Shown here piece after piece: positions 9,045-28,367 of a DNA stretch of 64,000 bases. Below the pieces are notes generated by a model that ran no database searches, was not told where the DNA came from, and saw only the letters and a list, made by a program, of their open reading frames with translations. The translations under genes and the position numbers were made by a program. The stretch comes from Streptomyces pristinaespiralis (GTDB lineage Bacteria > Actinomycetota > Actinomycetes > Streptomycetales > Streptomycetaceae). The stretch is from NCBI RefSeq assembly GCF_001278075.1, contig NZ_CP011340.1, positions 3,224,001-3,288,000 of the forward strand, written 5' to 3'. Within the stretch, counting starts at the first letter, position 1. Each line of letters begins with the position of its first letter.

Positions 9045-9811
9045 GCCGGTCCACCCTCCCCCGCGAGGCCCACGGCGCCCGCCAGCGAGCGCTGCTGCTC
9101 CGCACGCGCCTCCGGGGAGCGGTGCTGCAGTGCCTTGCGCAGGTGGGAGCGGCCGCGGTGGATGCGGCTGCGGACGGTGCCGAGCTTCACGCCCAGCGTC
9201 GCGGCGATCTCCTCGTACGACAGGCCCTCGATGTCACAGAGCACCACGGCGGCGCGGAACTCGGGCGCGAGGGTGTCCAGCGCGTGCTGGACGTCCGCGT
9301 CGAAGTGGCTGTCGTTGAAGACCTGCTGCGGCGACGGCTCCCGGCTGGGCAGACGCTCTGCCGCGTCGTCGCCCAGAGCGTCGAAGCGGATCCGCTGCTT
9401 GCGGCGGACCATGTCCAGGAAGAGATTGGTGGTGATCCTGTGGAGCCAGCCCTCGAAGGTGCCGGGCGTGTACGTCGACAGGGAGCGGAAGACGCGGACG
9501 AAGACCTCTTGTGTGAGGTCCTCGGCATCGTGCTGGTTACCCGTCAGGCGGTACGCGAGGCGGTAGACCCGTGCGCTGTGCGTGCTGACGATCTCCTCCC
9601 ACGTGGGAGGAGTCCAGGCCTGCGATTCCGCATCCGATGCGAAGGTCGCCGTGGTGACGGAGTCGGAGGGCGTAGAACGGTCAGCAGTGTTGGTCACGGA
9701 TTTCGGCTCACCCACCGACCTGAGAAGGCGCCTCAGCACTCCTCCCCGATCCGCAGGTGCAGCCGCACCTCCCCTGTCGGCTCTGGTGGTGTCCAGCGGA
9801 GCCCCTACCAT
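9041..9811 (-). CDS. sigE: ECF RNA polymerase sigma factor, SigE class
   Basis: ECF sigma factor of 256 residues from the ATG at 9811 (GAGGTGG just upstream). Region 2 is clear: [20 protein letters not shown] with [13 protein letters not shown] and the -10 recognition segment [19 protein letters not shown]. Region 4 has [20 protein letters not shown] followed by [12 protein letters not shown]. The first about 85 residues form an N-terminal extension of low order, as in mycobacterial SigE. Gene order (sigma, ZAS anti-sigma, htrA, tatB, with a divergent O-methyltransferase) matches M. tuberculosis sigE. The name is by that synteny and is not the cell-wall SigE of S. coelicolor. Alternative upstream starts up to 9919 are in frame but would overlap the divergent promoter region. 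Confidence 0.9.
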
Positions 9812-9984
9812 AGCCACCTCGCCCGTTAGCTCCGGATAAGAATCTTTACGTGGATTTGGAACCGGCATCCGGGCCCCGCTCCACGCGCTTCCCTCTGCCT
9901 CAACAACGACCGGTCCCATCTGCGGGTTCCCGGGCCCAGCGGATACAGTCAGCGTCGCGCCAACTACGGGGACAGGAGAGGGTC

Positions 9985-10620
9985 ATAACCGCCAACCAGC
10001 AGACGAGCTGGGCGTTCGCCGACGCCTTTGTCGCCGAGGACGACGCTCTGCGCTGGGCCCGGGACCGGGCCCGGGAGTCAGGGCTGCCCTCGGTGTCCCC
10101 GGGCACGGGCGCCGCCCTGCGACTGCTGGCCGCGACCGCCGACGCGAAGGCGGTGGCAGAGATCGGGACGGGGACGGGAGTCTCCGGCATCTACCTGCTG
10201 CACGGCATGCGCCCGGACGGCGTCCTGACCACGGTGGACCTCGAGCCGGAACGCCAGCAGTTCGCCCGCGAGGCCTTCCGGGCGGCCGGCTTCGCCGGGA
10301 ACCGCGCCCGCTTCATCCCCGGCCGTGCGCTCGACGTCCTGCCGCGGCTCGCGGACGGCGGCTACGACCTCGTCTTCTGCGACGGCGACCGCACCGAGTC
10401 CCTCGACTACCTCGCTGAATCGTTGCGCCTGCTGAGGCCGGGCGGACTCGTCTGCTTCGAGGGCGTTTTCGCCGACGGCCGTACGGTCGACTCCGCGGCT
10501 CAGCCGGCGGAGGTCCTGCGCGTGCGTGAGCTGCTGCGGGCGGTCCGTGAGAGTCATGAACTCCTGCCGACCCTGCTGCCGGTGGGCGACGGTCTCCTCT
10601 GCGCGGTCCGCCGCGCCTGA
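9985..10620 (+). CDS. SAM-dependent O-methyltransferase, probable ATA start
   Basis: Class I O-methyltransferase (methyltransf_3/catechol type), about 211 residues: SAM motif VAEIGTGTGVSGIYLL, acidic loop TTVDLEPERQQFAREAF and YDLVFCDGDRTESLDYL. Family members transfer a methyl group to hydroxyls of small aromatic or other substrates; the substrate is not predictable here. The start is odd. An optimal AGGAG lies 6 nt before ATA at 9985, and typical Streptomyces third-position GC begins exactly there. The only conventional in-frame start upstream is GTG 9850, and codons 9850-9984 have about one third A/T third positions and no Shine-Dalgarno. Annotation pipelines may extend it to 9850. It is divergent from the ECF sigma gene, as in mycobacteria. 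Confidence 0.85.
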   Translation: MTANQQTSWAFADAFVAEDDALRWARDRARESGLPSVSPGTGAALRLLAATADAKAVAEIGTGTGVSGIYLLHGMRPDGVLTTVDLEPERQQFAREAFRAAGFAGNRARFIPGRALDVLPRLADGGYDLVFCDGDRTESLDYLAESLRLLRPGGLVCFEGVFADGRTVDSAAQPAEVLRVRELLRAVRESHELLPTLLPVGDGLLCAVRRA

Positions 10621-10715
10621 GACGGCGCCGCGCACGGTTCTTCCGGGCTCCGCCCCCGTACCCCTCGCTCCGGACGCCTGCCGGGACCGGGTCCGCCGCA
10701 TTCCCTGAAAACACA

Positions 10716-10748
10716 CACTGCCCCGGCACGAACCGTGCCGGGGCAGTG
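10716..10748. terminator. Bidirectional terminator between convergent genes
   Basis: A perfect 15-bp stem (10716-10730 and 10734-10748) with loop AAC. It lies between the end of the methyltransferase and the end of the small DUF3117 gene, so it can serve both. Confidence 0.88.
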
Positions 10749-10763
10749 GAAAATCAGGGCGCG

Positions 10764-10931
10764 TCAGCCGACGACCTTCTTCAGGGCGTCACCGAGTGCA
10801 TCGGCTTCGTCCGGAGTCAGTTCGACGACAAGCCGACCGCCGCCTTCGAGCGGAACGCGCATGACGATGCCCCGCCCCTCCTTTGTCACCTCGAGCGGGC
10901 CGTCGCCCGTCCGCGGCTTCATGGCCGCCAT
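10764..10931 (-). CDS. DUF3117 small protein
   Basis: A 55-residue protein with the actinobacterial DUF3117 sequence: MAAMKPRTGDGPLEVTKEGR at the start, then a strand pair with IVMRVPFEGGGRLVVELTP and a C-terminal helix DEADALGDALKKVV. The length matches the family. Function is unknown; I know of no assigned activity. The start ATG at 10929-10931 is preceded by a GGAAGGGG-type Shine-Dalgarno. It corresponds by position to the M. tuberculosis gene next to tagA (Rv1211, from memory), consistent with long-range conservation of this neighbourhood. Confidence 0.9.
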   Translation of the reverse strand: MAAMKPRTGDGPLEVTKEGRGIVMRVPLEGGGRLVVELTPDEADALGDALKKVVG

Positions 10932-11243
10932 GCTCGTTCCCCTTCCTGAAACCAGCTCATCGCAGCCGGCGGCCCCGTGAGAGGTGCTGTGTCACCGGCA
11001 TCGAACACATTGCTTCCAGGTCATTATCCCGCATGGCGGGACCCAAAGACCAACATCAGTCGGCATCGCTTGCGCAACGCGCTCTCTCAAAACCACTCAA
11101 TTCGGCGATGTGGCTGCGATACTTCGCCGCCGCTCCCCAGGCGCCCCACGGAGATTGTTTGACGCAGGTCACATGTGCACACCCGATGATCTCCGTCATG
11201 CTGGCCTCGACACTGCCGTCAGAACCACCTAAGGGGACCCGCC
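10932..11243. other. Divergent intergenic region with candidate promoters
   Basis: 312 bp without a gene, between divergent DUF3117 and the crotonase gene. On the minus strand GATAAT (11023-11028) is a good -10 for DUF3117; it abuts a short inverted repeat with arms 11028-11032 and 11036-11040. On the plus strand TTGACG (11159-11164) is a good -35 for the crotonase, with a weak -10 near 11182-11190. The region is less GC-rich than its surroundings. No RNA gene is recognisable. Confidence 0.5.
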
Positions 11244-14143: not shown

Positions 14144-14893
14144 CTACCTGCCCGTCTCCTTGGAGACCATGGCCACCGCCTCCTCCACGTCGTCCGTGAC
14201 GTGGAAGAGCAGCAGGTCCTTCTCCGACGCCTTGCCCTGAGCGATGACGGTGTCTCGCAGCCAGTCGACCAGACCGCTCCAGTAGTCCGTGCCGAAGAGC
14301 ACGATCGGGAAGCGCGTCACCTTGCGGGTCTGGACGAGGGTCAGGGCCTCGAAGAGTTCGTCCAGCGTGCCGAGTCCGCCCGGCAGCACGACGAAGCCCT
14401 GCGCGTACTTCACGAACATCGTCTTGCGGACGAAGAAGTAGCGGAAGTTCACCCCGATGTCGACGTGCGGGTTGATGCCCTGTTCGAAGGGCAGCTCGAT
14501 GCCGAGGCCGACCGAGATCCCCTTGGCCTCGCTCGCGCCCTTGTTCGCGGCCTCCATCACGCCCGGACCACCGCCGGTGATCACCGCGAAGCCCGCCTTG
14601 GCCAGCGCCCTGCCGAGTTCGACGCCCACCTCGTACTCGGGCGAGCCGGCCGGGGTGCGGGCGGAACCGAAGACGCTGATGGCGCTGGGCAGTTCGGCGA
14701 GAGCGCCGAAGCCCTCCACGAACTCGGACTGGATACGCATGACCCGCCACGGGTCGGTGTGCACCCACTGGGAGTCGCCCTCGGTGTCGAGCAGCCGCTG
14801 ATCGGTGGTGCCCGGCCGGATCTGTTCCCTGCGGCGCAGTACCGGTCCCAGCCGCTGCTCCTCCAGCGCCCGCAATCCCTCGGGGTTGCTCAT
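14144..14893 (-). CDS. LOG-family protein (TIGR00730 Rossmann fold)
   Basis: A 249-residue cytoplasmic protein with the lysine-decarboxylase-like/LOG fold. Diagnostic motifs are AVITGGGPGVMEAANKGASE and VVLPGGLGTLDELFEALTL. Characterised relatives are nucleoside 5'-monophosphate phosphoribohydrolases (cytokinin-activating LOG enzymes); the old lysine decarboxylase label is wrong. The N-terminal 50 residues form an extension found in actinobacterial members. The ATG at 14893 is preceded by GGAGGGAGC. In M. tuberculosis the homologue Rv1205 also lies near dapE and folP2, which agrees with the neighbours here. The natural substrate in this bacterium is unknown. Confidence 0.9.
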   Translation of the reverse strand: MSNPEGLRALEEQRLGPVLRRREQIRPGTTDQRLLDTEGDSQWVHTDPWRVMRIQSEFVEGFGALAELPSAISVFGSARTPAGSPEYEVGVELGRALAKAGFAVITGGGPGVMEAANKGASEAKGISVGLGIELPFEQGINPHVDIGVNFRYFFVRKTMFVKYAQGFVVLPGGLGTLDELFEALTLVQTRKVTRFPIVLFGTDYWSGLVDWLRDTVIAQGKASEKDLLLFHVTDDVEEAVAMVSKETGR

Positions 14894-22151: not shown

Positions 22152-25100
22152 GTGGCTGTAACTGTGCCTGATTGGGCCGACACCCTGCTCGACGTCATCG
22201 GCGTCAACTGGCCCAACGTCGACGAGGACGCCTACCGCGACATGGCGGACTCCCTGCGGGAGTTCGCCGAGGACCTCGAGGACGACGGCCATCTCGCGAA
22301 CCAGCACGTGCAACGTTTGCTGTCCTCCGGCTACGGCGAAGCCATCGACGCGCTGAACGGCCACTGGGGCAAGGTCAAGGACAAGCACATCAAGGACATC
22401 GCCGGGGCCGCCCGCACCATCGCGGGCGCCCTGGACAACGCCGCCACGGCGATCGAGGCCATGAAGTACGCCGCCCTCGTCCACCTCGGCGTCCTCGCCG
22501 GCAAGGCCGGCATCTCGATGGCCCTCATCCCCGTCACCGGCGGACTGTCCATGCTCCTCGGCGCCGCCGCCATCGCCGCCTGCCAGCAGGCCGTCCGCAA
22601 GGTCATCAAGGAATGCATGGAGGAGGTCGTCGCCTACATCGTCTCGGCGATGACCGAACCCGCAGTCGCGGCCCTCGAGAACATGGCCGCCGACCTCGCC
22701 ATTCAGGTCGCCGCCGACGCGCTGGGTCTGCAGAACGGCGTCGACATGAACCAGGTGGGCCAAGCCGGCAAGGACGGCTTCAAGGAGGGCGTCCAAGGCG
22801 CGAAGGACGCGATGCACCTGGCCTCCGCAGGAGGTTCACCAGGCCCCGGACCAGGTGCCGGCAAAGGCGTCCACATCGAGCACTCCGAGCACGACCGCGC
22901 CGGCACCAAGCTGAACCTCGTCAGCGTCGGCGTCCACGGCAAGACCGCCGGCAAGCTGACCAAGGCCAGGTCCCATCACGGCCGCACCCGTGGCAAGGAC
23001 GACATCGCCGGCGCGCTCGACCCGGTGGTCGACAAAGCGATGGAGGCCCTGGGCAAGGCCACGAAAGAGATGGGCGACCACCTCGGCAAGAAGCTGCCGA
23101 AGGCTGTCAAGGACATCTCCGACAACCAGAAGAGGACCGACCAGGCAATCAAGGACAGGCTCGCCCGGGAGAACAAGGACGGCGGCGACGGGCGCGACGG
23201 CGGGAAGGGGGGCACCCGCCCCGGAGGCGACCGGTCCAAGGACTCCGCCCACACCAAGCCCGACTCGCTCAAGGACGCCAAGGACGATCCGCGCCGCAAC
23301 GGCATCCCGCTCGACAAGAAGACCTGTGAGAACGACCCGGTGGACGTCGCCACCGGCGAGATGACACTGCCCCAGACGGACCTGTCCCTGCCGGGCGTCC
23401 TGCCCCTGGTCCTCCGGCGCACTCACCTCTCCGGATACCGCTTCGGCCAGTGGTTCGGCCGCAGTTGGGCCTCCACCCTGGACGAGCGGATCGAGCTCGA
23501 CCCGCTCGGCGGCGGCGCGGTCTGGTCGCGCGAGGACGGCTCCCTCCTCGTCTACCCCCGGCTGCCGCTGCCGGACGAACCGGACGGCGTCCTGCCTCTC
23601 GAAGGGGCGCGTCTGCCTCTCCTGCACGGCGACGAGGTCAACGGGGAGACCACCTATCGCGTCACCGATCCGCACTCCGGCCTGACGCGCTCGTTCACCG
23701 GCAGCCCGTACAACGAGTCGTCCGCGTACTGGCTCAGGGAGATCGAGGACCGCAACCTCAACCGGATCACGTTCACCCGCCGCCGGGACGGCAGCCCCAC
23801 GGCCGTCACTCATGACGGTGGATACCGGGTCACCCTGGCCGTCGAGGAGGCCCGCGTACGCGAGCTCGCCCTGCGCACACCGGACGGCCCGGTCACCGTC
23901 ATGCGCTACGGCTACGACGCACGGGGCAACCTCGACGCCGTCATCAACTCCTCCGGCCGGCCGCTCCGCTTCACCTACGACGCCGACGCCAGAATCACCT
24001 CCTGGACCGACCGGAACGACTCCACCTTCCGGTACGTCTACGACAGCGCCGGCCGGGTCGTCCGCACGATCGGCCCGGACGGATACCTGTCCTCCACGTT
24101 CGTCCACGACGTCCACGGCGAGACGGGCGCCCCGATCACCCGGTACACGAATTCGGTCGGCGCGACGAAGGTCTTCCACTTCAACGACCACCTGCAGGTC
24201 GTCGCGGAGACCGACCCCCTGGGGAACACGACTCACCAGACCTTCGACCGGTACGACCGCCTCCTCTCCCGCACCGACGCCCTCGGCCGGACCACCGCCT
24301 ACACCTACGACGACCGCGGCAACCTCACCCGTGTCGACCACCCGGACGGCACCGCGGCCACCGTCGAGTACAACGAGCTGAACCAGCTCGCATCCGTCAC
24401 CGGCCCGGACGGTTCCACATCGCGGCAGGAGTACGACGAGCGCGGCAACCCGACCCTCTTCACACGCCCGAACGGGTCGACGACCCGCCTTACCCATGGG
24501 CCGCGCGGCCAGCTCACCGGGGTCGACGACTCCCTGGGCGCACTTGACCGGGTGCACTGCGACGCTGCCGGTCTCCCGCTGGCGGTCCGCGGCCCGCTCG
24601 GCGCGGTCACCCGCTACACGCGGGACGCCTTCGGGCGGGCGACCAGGATCACCGATCCGCAGGGCCGCACCACCGAGCTGGAGTGGACCGTCGAGGGCAA
24701 GCTCGCTCGTCGGACCGACCCGGACGGCGCGCAGCAGTCGTGGACCTACGACGGCGAGGGCAACTGCCTTGTCCACACGGACGCTGTGGGCGGCGAGACC
24801 CGCTTCGAGTACACCCACTTCGACCTGGTCGCCGCCCGCACCGCACCGGACGGCGCGCGCCACGAGTTCGCTCATGACACAGAGCTGCGCCTCGCTGCCG
24901 TGACCGACCCGCAGGGCCTCACCTGGAGCTACGAGTACGACTCGGCGGGGCGCCTCACCTCCGAGACGGACTTCGACGGCCGCACCCTCACGTACGCCCA
25001 CGATGCGATGGGCCGCCTGTCCGCCCGTACGAACGGCCTCGGGCAGACGGTCCGCTACGAGCGCGACTCGGCGGGCCGCGTGATCACGAAAGACGCGGAC

Positions 25101-27065
25101 GGTGCGGTCACCCGCTTCACCTACGACATCCACGGTCACCTCGCCAGTGCCGTGAGCCCGGACGTCCAACTGTCCTTCGTACGCGACAGCTCGGGCCGGA
25201 TCCTCCGCGAGATCTGCAACGGCCGGGAACTCGCCAACGTCTACGACGAGACCGGCCGCCGCCTCCGCCGCACCACCCCCTCCGGAGCGGTCAGCACCTG
25301 GTCCTTCCCCGCGGACCTCCACGCCGAGCTGAACGCCTCGGGCCACCCAGTGGTCTTCGAGTTCGACGAGTCGGGCAGGGAGAGCACCCGCCGCATCGGC
25401 GACACACTGGCCATCGAGCACGCCTACGACGCCGGCGGCCGCCTGACCGACCAGCGCGTCCGGGGTGCCGGTGACCGGACTCTCCAGCACCGCACCTACA
25501 CGTACCGCGCGGACGGCCACCTCACCTCGGTCGACGACCAGCTCGGCGGCCGACGGCGGTTGGAACTGACCCGCGAAGGCCGGGTCACGGGCGTCACCGC
25601 CGAGAACTGGAGCGAGCGGTACGCCTACGACGAGGCCGGCAACCAGACGACAGCGTCCTCCCCGGGCGGCGGTGACACCGACGGCCCACGCGAGTACGTC
25701 GGTACCCGCATCACCCGTGCGGGCAGGGTCCGCTACGAACACGACGCGCAGGGCCGGGTCGTCCTGCGCCAGAAGGCCCGTCTCTCGCGCAAGCCGGACA
25801 CCTGGCACTACGGCTGGGACGCCGAGGACCACCTGGTCTCCGTCACCACACCGGACGGGACGCGCTGGCGCTACGTGTACGACGCGCTGGGCCGCCGGAT
25901 CGCGAAGCAACGCCTGTCGGCAGACGCGACGACGGTCGCCGAGGAGGTGACCTTCACGTGGGACGGCGACACCCTGTGCGAACAGACCACCTCACTGACC
26001 GGCTCCGCCGACTCCGTCGCCCTGACCTGGGACCACGACGGCGTGAAGCCGGTCACCCAGGTGGAACGCCGACTCCTCGACCGGTCGGAGGTCGACCGTC
26101 GCTTCTTCGCGATCGTCACGGACCTGGTCGGGACGCCGCGCGAACTCGTCGACGAGCAGGGCAAGGTGGCCTGGCGCACCCGGGCGACCCTGTGGGGTAC
26201 GACGACGTGGAACCGCAGCGCCACCGCGTACACACCGCTGCGCTTCCCCGGCCAGTACTTCGACCCCGAGTCGGGCCTCCACTACAACCGCCACCGCCAC
26301 TACGACCCCGAGTCGGGCCGCTACCTCTCCCCGGACCCCCTGGGCCTGGTCCCGGCCCCGAACGCGGTCACGTACGTCGACAACCCGACGCGGTGGATCG
26401 ACCCGCTGGGCTTGGCGGGTTGCCCGCACCGCAACGGCGAGCACAGGCACAGCGTGGTGCTGGGCGTCGATATGGAACCCCACCGGCAATCGGAGTCCTT
26501 GGCCAGATATCTGCGAAACGATCCCTCCTATCCGAACCACGATCCAAATCGGCCTCAGGATCCAGGAGCACACACCTACAACGGCAATGCCTACTCGGGT
26601 GAGGAAGCAGGTGGGCCGATATGGATGACCAACGTCATGGCCGCCGTCGGAGACCGCAACACAACCCTGTCCATCACCTTGGACGGCATGCCGAACAGCG
26701 AGGGCAGAGTCGGAAACTGGAGCACCCCGGCAGATATCGTGGATGCGTTCCAGGCGGCGGCACAGCATGGCGCCCAGTTCAACACCTCTCATGAGGACAA
26801 CTATCCTCGACGTGGCTCCGGAACGGCCTGGGAAATGAGCGAGGTCGCTTACGCGGTGCGCAACTACGACGGGGCTGCCGCTTGGGGAGACCCTGACAGT
26901 GAACGGCCCGGCCGTCCTTGGGAAGAAATCCACTGGTACACCCGCGACGAGGAGAACGGCGGATACAAGGAGATCAAGGTCCCCAAACCTGATATCCCAG
27001 AGATCCAGCCGGACCTCTCGAAACTACCGAAGCATCTGAGGGACGCACTGAATGGCGAATCATGA
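22152..27065 (+). CDS. RHS-repeat polymorphic toxin with unassigned C-terminal domain
   Basis: A 1637-residue protein built as a contact-dependent or secreted toxin. Residues 1-220 are helical and WXG100/CpnT-like (VNWPNVDEDAYRDMADSLRE, LNGHWGKVKDKHIKDIAGAA), the delivery type linked to type VII export. A Lys/Asp-rich linker runs to about 390, where a DUF6531-like domain starts (NDPVDVATGEMTLPQTDLSL). About 580-1300 holds YD/RHS repeats that form the cocoon. The RHS core lies at 1362-1400 (FPGQYFDPESGLHYNRHRHY) and ends at DPLGLAG near 1422. The final 215 residues are the toxin tip; I recognise no nuclease or deaminase motif. Start GTG 22152 after GGGGGGA. The immunity-like gene downstream overlaps it by 14 bp. 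Confidence 0.92.
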   Translation: MAVTVPDWADTLLDVIGVNWPNVDEDAYRDMADSLREFAEDLEDDGHLANQHVQRLLSSGYGEAIDALNGHWGKVKDKHIKDIAGAARTIAGALDNAATAIEAMKYAALVHLGVLAGKAGISMALIPVTGGLSMLLGAAAIAACQQAVRKVIKECMEEVVAYIVSAMTEPAVAALENMAADLAIQVAADALGLQNGVDMNQVGQAGKDGFKEGVQGAKDAMHLASAGGSPGPGPGAGKGVHIEHSEHDRAGTKLNLVSVGVHGKTAGKLTKARSHHGRTRGKDDIAGALDPVVDKAMEALGKATKEMGDHLGKKLPKAVKDISDNQKRTDQAIKDRLARENKDGGDGRDGGKGGTRPGGDRSKDSAHTKPDSLKDAKDDPRRNGIPLDKKTCENDPVDVATGEMTLPQTDLSLPGVLPLVLRRTHLSGYRFGQWFGRSWASTLDERIELDPLGGGAVWSREDGSLLVYPRLPLPDEPDGVLPLEGARLPLLHGDEVNGETTYRVTDPHSGLTRSFTGSPYNESSAYWLREIEDRNLNRITFTRRRDGSPTAVTHDGGYRVTLAVEEARVRELALRTPDGPVTVMRYGYDARGNLDAVINSSGRPLRFTYDADARITSWTDRNDSTFRYVYDSAGRVVRTIGPDGYLSSTFVHDVHGETGAPITRYTNSVGATKVFHFNDHLQVVAETDPLGNTTHQTFDRYDRLLSRTDALGRTTAYTYDDRGNLTRVDHPDGTAATVEYNELNQLASVTGPDGSTSRQEYDERGNPTLFTRPNGSTTRLTHGPRGQLTGVDDSLGALDRVHCDAAGLPLAVRGPLGAVTRYTRDAFGRATRITDPQGRTTELEWTVEGKLARRTDPDGAQQSWTYDGEGNCLVHTDAVGGETRFEYTHFDLVAARTAPDGARHEFAHDTELRLAAVTDPQGLTWSYEYDSAGRLTSETDFDGRTLTYAHDAMGRLSARTNGLGQTVRYERDSAGRVITKDADGAVTRFTYDIHGHLASAVSPDVQLSFVRDSSGRILREICNGRELANVYDETGRRLRRTTPSGAVSTWSFPADLHAELNASGHPVVFEFDESGRESTRRIGDTLAIEHAYDAGGRLTDQRVRGAGDRTLQHRTYTYRADGHLTSVDDQLGGRRRLELTREGRVTGVTAENWSERYAYDEAGNQTTASSPGGGDTDGPREYVGTRITRAGRVRYEHDAQGRVVLRQKARLSRKPDTWHYGWDAEDHLVSVTTPDGTRWRYVYDALGRRIAKQRLSADATTVAEEVTFTWDGDTLCEQTTSLTGSADSVALTWDHDGVKPVTQVERRLLDRSEVDRRFFAIVTDLVGTPRELVDEQGKVAWRTRATLWGTTTWNRSATAYTPLRFPGQYFDPESGLHYNRHRHYDPESGRYLSPDPLGLVPAPNAVTYVDNPTRWIDPLGLAGCPHRNGEHRHSVVLGVDMEPHRQSESLARYLRNDPSYPNHDPNRPQDPGAHTYNGNAYSGEEAGGPIWMTNVMAAVGDRNTTLSITLDGMPNSEGRVGNWSTPADIVDAFQAAAQHGAQFNTSHEDNYPRRGSGTAWEMSEVAYAVRNYDGAAAWGDPDSERPGRPWEEIHWYTRDEENGGYKEIKVPKPDIPEIQPDLSKLPKHLRDALNGES

Positions 27066-27420
27066 AATGTCGGACGCCGCAGAACTTGTTGAAGCAGAGT
27101 GGAACCGGATTCTGGGCTACGGCCCGGATCGCATCGACCCTCTGGTTGCTCGCACCGCGTACACGCACCCCGCTCTGCGAGAACTCTTCCCGATGGTAAG
27201 CCACGGGATCCTCTACTTGAGTCGCTGCACGCAATATCCCTGGACCCACGATGTCGCCACCGCTTTTCCCCAAGCGGCCGGTGGTTACCGCGTGCGCCGG
27301 CAATCAGACAACACTCTCCTCGGCGCGGTCGAGACCGTGGAGGAGGCTTACGAGTTGATCGCCGCCAACCTCCCGGAGGGGTGCGGCCCGGCCGTCGACG
27401 GCACTCCGGACGACCTTTGA
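27052..27420 (+). CDS. Putative immunity protein for the RHS toxin
   Basis: A 122-residue cytoplasmic protein starting inside the last codons of the toxin gene (14-bp overlap), the standard position of a cognate immunity gene. Features: an N-terminal helix (AAELVEAEWNRILGYG), the block ALRELFPMVSHGILYLSRCT, and a C-terminal ETVEEAYELIAANLPEGCGP. The pattern recalls the DUF6193-type family found near actinobacterial natural-product and toxin genes, from memory and unverified. Two further copies of the same fold follow downstream, one broken. Low third-position GC, like the toxin tip, points to joint acquisition. Start ATG 27052. Confidence 0.8.
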   Translation: MANHEMSDAAELVEAEWNRILGYGPDRIDPLVARTAYTHPALRELFPMVSHGILYLSRCTQYPWTHDVATAFPQAAGGYRVRRQSDNTLLGAVETVEEAYELIAANLPEGCGPAVDGTPDDL

Positions 27421-27560
27421 CCGCGAACGTCAGGGCCGCGTCCGCAGAGACGCGCCGAGTGCCACGGATGAGCTTGTTCCGCATGGGCGGACACCTGTCG
27501 GTGTGTGGTCAGGCCGCGAGGGGCGCGGCCCGGCCATCGCCGGCACAGCAGGAGTGCTGT

Positions 27561-27653
27561 GACGCGACGGAGTTCCTCGGCGAGGCGGACACCCTCGGGA
27601 GGCGTTCGCGCTCGTCGTGGCGTACCTGCGCGACGGGTGCGGCCCTGCCTGAG
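27561..27653 (+). pseudogene. C-terminal remnant of an immunity paralogue
   Basis: About 30 codons matching the end of the immunity family: FLGEADTL, then after a one-base shift near 27597 AFALVVAYLRDGCGPA and a stop at 27649-27651. No start or N-terminal part exists upstream. It aligns by eye with LLGAVETVEEAYELIAANLPEGCGPA of the intact first copy. It is a truncated, frameshifted leftover of a recombined copy. A still shorter tail-like segment (REGRGPAIAGTAGVL then stop) may lie just upstream, near 27518-27562. Confidence 0.55.
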
Positions 27654-27993
27654 ATCGTTGCCAGACAATGGCGGTATCTCCTGGAAGGGAATCAGGACCT
27701 GATCGACACGGAAACCGTCCGGGCGGCCTATGCGCAGCCGCGACTGAGACAGCTTTTCCCCGATGGTCAGCCACGGAGTGATGTACTTCAGCCGGTGCAC
27801 CGGAATGCCGGCCGCGCATGTCGGCGGCCAGGTCTATCCGAGGGGCGCTGACGGGCGGTTCTGGGTTCGAGGACCCATGGGCATAGGCGCCGTGGGCAGG
27901 GCGGAAACCCTGGAGGAAGCATTCGCACTGGTCGCGGCCAATCTCCCGGAGCGGTGTGGCCCGGCCATACTTGGCACAGTGGGGGACGTATGA
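27651..27993 (+). pseudogene. Frameshifted immunity paralogue (second copy)
   Basis: The first part, read from 27651, gives EIVARQWRYLLEGNQDLIDT and AAYAQPRLRQLFP. The second part continues in another frame from 27763: MVSHGVMYFSRCTGMPAAHV to LEEAFALVAANLPERCGPAI. The switch falls at a CCCC run near 27757-27762, where the intact copy has CCC, so one extra base breaks the gene. No good start codon precedes the first part. Together the two halves cover the whole family length. It is either a genuine pseudogene or a sequencing error in a homopolymer. Its TGA overlaps the ATG of the third copy by 4 bp. Confidence 0.65.
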
Positions 27994-28367
27994 CGCACGG
28001 GAACGAAGCCGAGGAGGCCGCTCGGGTCGTGTCCGCGCAGTGGCAGCAGGTCCTCGCGTACGACTCGTACACGGTCGATCCCGCCATGCCCCGCGCCGCG
28101 TTCGCACACCCTCGCCTGCGGGAGCTGTATCCGGTGGTCAGCCACGGTGCCCTCTACCTCAACCGGTGCACAGGCTTCCCCACACCGGGAGACGTGGGCG
28201 CACTGTTCCGCCGGGCTGGAGGAGGGTTCATCGTCATCCGGCACTCCGACGGAGCCGTCCTCGGTGAGCCCGATACCGTCGAGGAAGCTGTCGAACTGAT
28301 TGTGAGGAACCTGCCCGACGGGTGCGGCCCTGCCGTCATCGGCACGGCGGACGACGTCCCTGGCTGA
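27990..28367 (+). CDS. Second intact immunity-family protein
   Basis: A 125-residue paralogue of the protein at 27052-27420. Shared blocks: RVVSAQWQQVLAYDSYTVDP, HPRLRELYPVVSHGALYLNR and TVEEAVELIVRNLPDGCGPA. It begins with ATG at 27990, overlapping the stop of the broken second copy (ATGA), which indicates coupling before that copy decayed. No toxin tip lies next to it, so it is probably an orphan immunity gene kept against another strain's toxin tip. Its codon use is closer to the chromosome than that of the first copy. Confidence 0.75.
   Translation: MTHGNEAEEAARVVSAQWQQVLAYDSYTVDPAMPRAAFAHPRLRELYPVVSHGALYLNRCTGFPTPGDVGALFRRAGGGFIVIRHSDGAVLGEPDTVEEAVELIVRNLPDGCGPAVIGTADDVPG

Follow-up and report, generated by a model that had tools for sequence, protein, structure and literature searches.

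An Ntox27-tipped RHS toxin of Streptomyces pristinaespiralis and DUF6193, its probable immunity family

Introduction

To which family does the tip of a large RHS toxin belong, and which neighboring gene protects the cell that makes it? The question is raised by a 64,000-nucleotide stretch of Streptomyces pristinaespiralis contig NZ_CP011340.1 (positions 3,224,001 to 3,288,000; hereafter, the window), from a host genome of 8.53 Mb in a single contig. An initial annotation of this DNA had described an RHS toxin with adjacent immunity genes and a tip that it could assign to no known toxin. We report that the tip belongs to Ntox27 (PF15531), and that the locus probably encodes an RHS-type polymorphic contact toxin for which DUF6193 (PF19692) is the specific immunity protein. 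Judging from the open-licence literature searched, DUF6193 is likely to be a previously unreported immunity family for this branch of Ntox27.

Results

The tip is an Ntox27 domain and is followed by a DUF6193 gene

The central features, in window coordinates, are the following.

22152..27065, + strand: RHS polymorphic toxin, 1637 residues, GTG start, reading frame open throughout
26418..27062, + strand: toxin tip, the 215 residues after DPLGLAG (residues 1423-1637), G+C content 0.61, G+C at third codon positions (GC3) 0.71
26613..26870, + strand: Ntox27 (PF15531) match in Pfam, residues 1488-1573
27052..27420, + strand: first DUF6193 gene, 122 residues, likely the cognate immunity gene (PF19692, 133.7 bits)

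The tip alone scores 32.3 bits against PF15531, and the whole protein 29.4 bits, for a cut-off of 24. The same family is matched by 27/27 aligned relatives of the tip, and NCBI records of relatives bear the name “polymorphic toxin type 27.” The earlier view that no known toxin resembles this tip is wrong. Since the Ntox27 match lies above the cut-off, the tip is not novel as a family, a known-family match being what the initial annotation had itself named as removing novelty. The blocks that it had picked out as conserved-looking (LDG, GTAWEM) correspond to the conserved Ntox27 core, and the last ~215 residues past DPLGLAG do form a distinct tip, as it had proposed.

Ntox27 was named in a 2012 survey of polymorphic toxins, which gives it an alpha+beta fold with conserved residues D, E, and RxW and, in Table 2, records it from actinobacteria, bacteroidetes, and fusobacteria without an immunity protein (PMC3482391). 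The window's tip shares with this family the residues D, E, and RxW and the position at the C terminus of RHS and WXG proteins. An Ntox27 protein also occurs in a metaproteome list (PMC10882806). In the open-licence literature, we found no toxin activity assigned to Ntox27 and no mention of “bacterial toxin 27,” “polymorphic toxin type 27,” or the accession PF15531, nor any of DUF6193 or PF19692, as an immunity protein or otherwise.

The first DUF6193 gene starts with an ATG at 27052, inside the toxin reading frame, and overlaps the toxin end by 14 nucleotides, which agrees with the earlier observation of an immunity-type gene beginning within the last codons of the toxin. It lies directly 3′ of the toxin gene, where the gene-order rule for polymorphic toxins, as stated in the survey passages, places the immunity gene (PMC3482391).

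DUF6193 follows the tip and not the RHS body

Is DUF6193 tied to the tip or to the body that carries it? A search with the RHS core gave matches in 226/246 genomes. Among the best 30 loci, which were kept and examined over ~1 kb past the tip, DUF6193 lies directly behind 7/7 with the window's tip branch and 0/23 with other tips (Fisher p 5e-7, for loci that are related); two of the latter (L251 and L258) are diverged Ntox27 relatives with an unnamed partner, described below. In a tally of locus records of the window's tip branch, DUF6193 was behind 34/34, of which a script counted 24 as distinct, and the unnamed partner was behind 0/34. This partner tally omits L023, L028, and L031 (no domain match with the profile used), L004 (a fragment accompanied by a piece of DUF6193), and counted loci that were retrieved again, and the patterns used for locus retrieval, GTAWEMS[VEQ] and [TS]L[SH][IV]TLDGM, favor the window's tip branch.

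Tip and first DUF6193 gene also vary together. Across 21 loci, their identities correlate with r 0.90 (0/9999 permutations), as opposed to 0.10 for tip and body and 0.01 for immunity gene and body, and the tip-immunity partial correlation given the body is 0.90 (0/4999 permutations). Six of the 21 bodies entering the body correlation are shorter than 900 residues because of a stop upstream of the tip. Alignment A2 was made without L077, and alignment A3 without L077 and L085. A tie of DUF6193 to the RHS body instead of the tip is rejected by the 7/7 versus 0/23 split and by the immunity-body coefficient. At the level of sequence comparison, the tip and the first DUF6193 gene are shown to be passed on together as a single cassette that does not depend on the RHS body, and the toxin-immunity pairing is better supported than the initial annotation could show.

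Composition is consistent with this. GC3, at 0.92 in the body, drops to 0.71 once the tip begins and is 0.73 in the first downstream gene, which fits the expectation for a recombined cassette; overall G+C is 0.70 in the RHS body versus 0.61 in the tip. Tips on related heads are exchangeable, with Ntox27 in 69/120 listed head relatives and another tip in 51/120 (at least 4 of these 51 being truncated), and the closest body (P0077, 89%) bears a tip only 60% alike.

Other Ntox27 branches have a different partner

The HINT-linked Ntox27 toxins (L005-L022, L094-L098) belong to the same toxin superfamily and show the same toxin-then-partner order. Their partner is unrelated to DUF6193. An unnamed gene of ~135 residues lies directly behind HINT-linked and other Ntox27 toxins in 23/25 records (20/22 distinct); one record has both partners, one has DUF6193 only, and one has neither. 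Two examples are given here.

L096, 6475-6879: ~135-residue partner gene
L009, 1961-2377: ~135-residue partner gene

Five members scanned against Pfam matched no family, and the profile comparison with DUF6193 is negative (hhalign 0.29%). The partner profile was built from seven loci that it later matched, and outside of those it matches 13/15 distinct loci. The ~135-residue family is thus a candidate second immunity family, proposed from sequence for the other Ntox27 branches. As for the toxins themselves, the window's branch differs from the HINT-linked one by extra stretches after DG and before RxW, by a C-terminal tail, and by its pairing with DUF6193 instead of the unnamed gene.

Two RHS tips, at L251 (1876-2259) and L258 (1837-2232), are under the Pfam cut-off (PF15531 E 0.038) or unmatched. 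Even so, a deeper Ntox27 profile aligns with them (hhalign 97.3%), and D, TxxE, and RxW are all present, so they are, as judged from these alignments, a sister branch of Ntox27, and the superfamily is wider than the Pfam model. Both sit on RHS bodies like the window's and carry the ~135-residue partner, which ties the identity of the partner to the branch of the tip instead of to the body. The window's own branch is, as far as these matches go, near the edge of the PF15531 model, and the precomputed PF15531 label is missing from 23/87 of its close relatives (our count).

A further locus, L032 (1429-2548), has a diverged Ntox27 followed by a 227-residue protein in which DUF6193 covers only the C-terminal half (37.1 bits). 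Its toxin has a His at the position where others have Asp.

Extra DUF6193 copies resemble a poly-immunity cluster

Downstream of the first DUF6193 gene, the window holds more copies.

27596..27655 (about), + strand: small remnant matching the C-terminal end of DUF6193 (weak match, E 4e-4)
27651..27990 (about), + strand: DUF6193 copy broken across two frames, with its N-terminal part at 27651-27761 and its C-terminal part at 27760-27990 (sequence match)
27990..28367, + strand: second intact DUF6193 gene, starting from the ATG at 27990, with a longest open reading frame from GTG 27954 (PF19692, 132.1 bits)

The adjacent immunity genes of the initial annotation are therefore retained as two intact genes, both clear DUF6193 members with 52.5% identity to each other, to which the split copy and the remnant are now added. 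A search of the host genome gave four DUF6193 matches, all at the toxin locus, and none elsewhere at E 0.001.

The extra copies resemble the probable antidotes of loci with other tip subtypes. Five of six are nearest to the first copy of another locus; L072's second copy and L091's first copy are 92% alike, against only 56% for the tips of these two loci, and the later of the window's two intact genes shows 71% likeness to the first copy of L082. Moreover, in another Streptomyces (G276), the upstream flank of locus L099 matches that of the window's toxin gene at 83.6% over 2380 columns, and the site holds a toxin-free array.

L099 (G276), 9384-10977: four tandem DUF6193 genes and a partial one, with 4-nucleotide overlaps between neighbors

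No trace of an RHS gene was found in the 13.5 kb searched at this matching site; elsewhere, the G276 genome has other RHS genes and a HINT-linked Ntox27. In yet another genome (G174), L100 (9500-11537) combines a DUF6193 gene with an adjacent, displaced piece of RHS core that bears another tip, resembling an orphan tip module.

The window's extra copies, one of them split over two frames, can therefore be described, from their sequences, as a putative poly-immunity cluster. Passages of the survey propose that strings of immunity genes are a record of former tips or a guard against rivals (PMC3482391), an idea that the copies matching other loci and the toxin-free array fit. The polyimmunity loci described there likewise string together several immunity genes from a single family, either after a toxin or free-standing. 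The homogeneous kinds named in these passages, however, are SUKH, Imm6, Imm11, Imm28, Imm33, Imm36, and Imm41, and DUF6193 is not among them (PMC3482391).

Conserved residues and predicted fold of the tip

Three sets of residues in the tip stand out.

26682..26684, + strand: conserved aspartate, D89 of the tip (D1511 of the protein), on the loop that follows predicted strand 83-87, near-invariant
26823..26834, + strand: T-x-x-E, tip T136/E139 (protein T1558/E1561), at the start of predicted helix 135-155, invariant
26913..26921, + strand: R-x-W, tip R166/W168 (protein R1588/W1590), from the alignment and PMC3482391, Table 2

When 25 divergent members were aligned, T136 and E139 were invariant, while D89, G90, W69, N55, and R166 were near-invariant (at least 90% of the 25 rows). 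The predicted model of the tip consists of helices and strands (predicted local distance difference test score 89.2, predicted template modeling score 0.88), and thus has the alpha+beta composition ascribed to Ntox27. No significant structure match to this predicted fold was found, the best weak matches being TIR domains; Rossmann-like rows were returned.

The motifs GTAxE and GxGTxxE prompted a comparison with nucleoside deoxyribosyltransferases, LOG, and TIR. Kinship by sequence is unsupported, since hhalign gave 0.1-1.0% for TIR, PF05014, and PF03641, the same as for controls (sets of 26 PF05014, 30 TIR_2, 30 PF03641, and 30 response-regulator control sequences).

Architecture of the toxin and its WXG100-like head

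Upstream of the tip, the toxin has the parts listed here.

22203..22550, + strand: WXG100-like head (WXG100_2, PF25547), residues 18-133 (Pfam, 35.8 bits, cut-off 27)
23334..23555, + strand: DUF6531 domain, residues 395-468 (Pfam)
26190..26414, + strand: RHS repeat-associated core (TIGR03696), residues 1347-1421 (NCBIfam)

Pfam also finds 19 stretches of RHS repeats in the reading frame and an RHS protein domain at residues 1322-1352, all of which upholds the description of an RHS toxin with a WXG100-type head. The locus is, by these predicted domains, a polymorphic contact toxin system, ordinary of its type. The host genome has one EccB gene, ~690 kb from the toxin locus. Elsewhere in the window, at 14171-14557 on the - strand, there is a gene of the LOG/lysine-decarboxylase family (PF03641, 119.2 bits), with no relation to the toxin locus.

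Discussion

The mechanism that we propose is that the WXG100-like head would export the toxin through a type VII (ESX) system and the RHS shell would carry the tip to a neighboring cell, where it would act in the cytoplasm if the matching DUF6193 protein is missing. In kin, DUF6193 would bind and block the tip, and the extra copies may be left over from earlier tips or may protect against competitors.

Could DUF6193 travel with the tip and yet be something other than its antidote, e.g., a chaperone or a regulator of the cassette? Its wide distribution away from Ntox27, including inside longer open frames, would suit such a general role. Tandem diverged copies, their matches to other tip subtypes, and the toxin-free array fit immunity better, and we consider this alternative unlikely. 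It is more improbable still that the toxin is silent or inactive, and the cassette a relic. One DUF6193 copy behind the toxin is indeed broken, and in 6/21 related loci a stop interrupts the 900 residues that precede the tip, but the window's 1637-residue frame is intact and keeps all of the family-defining residues. An Ntox27 toxin with DUF6193 as its specific immunity protein is thus the reading that we favor.

As for its activity, the tip is most likely an enzyme, with a predicted active site composed of T-x-x-E (E1561), D1511, and R1588/W1590, and its substrate is tentatively guessed to be the N-glycosidic bond of a nucleotide like nicotinamide adenine dinucleotide (NAD), slightly ahead of RNA, our confidence in either being low. 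The tip might be a diverged Rossmannoid of the TIR/DrHyd/SLOG type that cuts this bond in NAD or another nucleotide using the Glu in T-x-x-E as catalytic residue, although we regard this as doubtful. An equally doubtful account makes it a metal-independent ribonuclease (RNase), the active site of which would be blocked by DUF6193. The label PF13930, a nuclease family, is on 29/51 sister tips of related bodies among the 120 listed (our count) and speaks for an RNase. So do passages of the 2012 survey, where Table 2 has Ntox27 under “Predicted metal-independent RNase toxins,” before the two-histidine RNase heading, and where most novel toxin domains are predicted nucleases (PMC3482391). However, the same passages contain no specific argument for Ntox27 and call the catalysis of the remaining Ntox domains unclear (PMC3482391), the 25 divergent members have no invariant or near-invariant histidine, and the rows returned for the predicted fold are Rossmann-like. 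The absence of RNase folds from the structure-match list was not counted as evidence.

Several points weigh against the picture as a whole. All of the genomes belong to a single genus and are related by descent, which means that the counts cannot be treated as independent. DUF6193 has matches in 135/295 Streptomyces genomes versus 29/295 for PF15531; being far commoner than the window's tip and often in other settings, it is not solely the antidote of Ntox27, and other partners or roles away from this toxin are likely. The Asp at the D1511 position is missing in at least L021 and L032, and T-x-x-E at the start of a helix could be a structural capping box. Finally, the chemistry of the tip is a guess because the predicted fold has no significant match.

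As an observation in its own right, DUF6193 away from Ntox27 is found in many Streptomyces (L043-L071 and others), where the matches listed often sit within longer open frames or stand by themselves close to transposase-like genes.

These findings have several implications. DUF6193, so widely matched in the Streptomyces genomes sampled, gains a likely role as a toxin antidote, and Ntox27, listed without an immunity protein in 2012, gains two candidate immunity families, each going with different branches of the toxin. A candidate antidote also makes the toxin activity testable, since toxic tips are manageable only alongside their antidote. There is a modest chance that Ntox27 is no RNase family at all and instead a new branch of TIR/DrHyd/SLOG Rossmannoids, contact-delivered NAD-like glycosidases with two unrelated immunity proteins (DUF6193 and the ~135-residue family), each tied to its branch. 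If the TIR-like reading is true, Ntox27 would leave the predicted RNases and join the toxins that deplete nucleotides.
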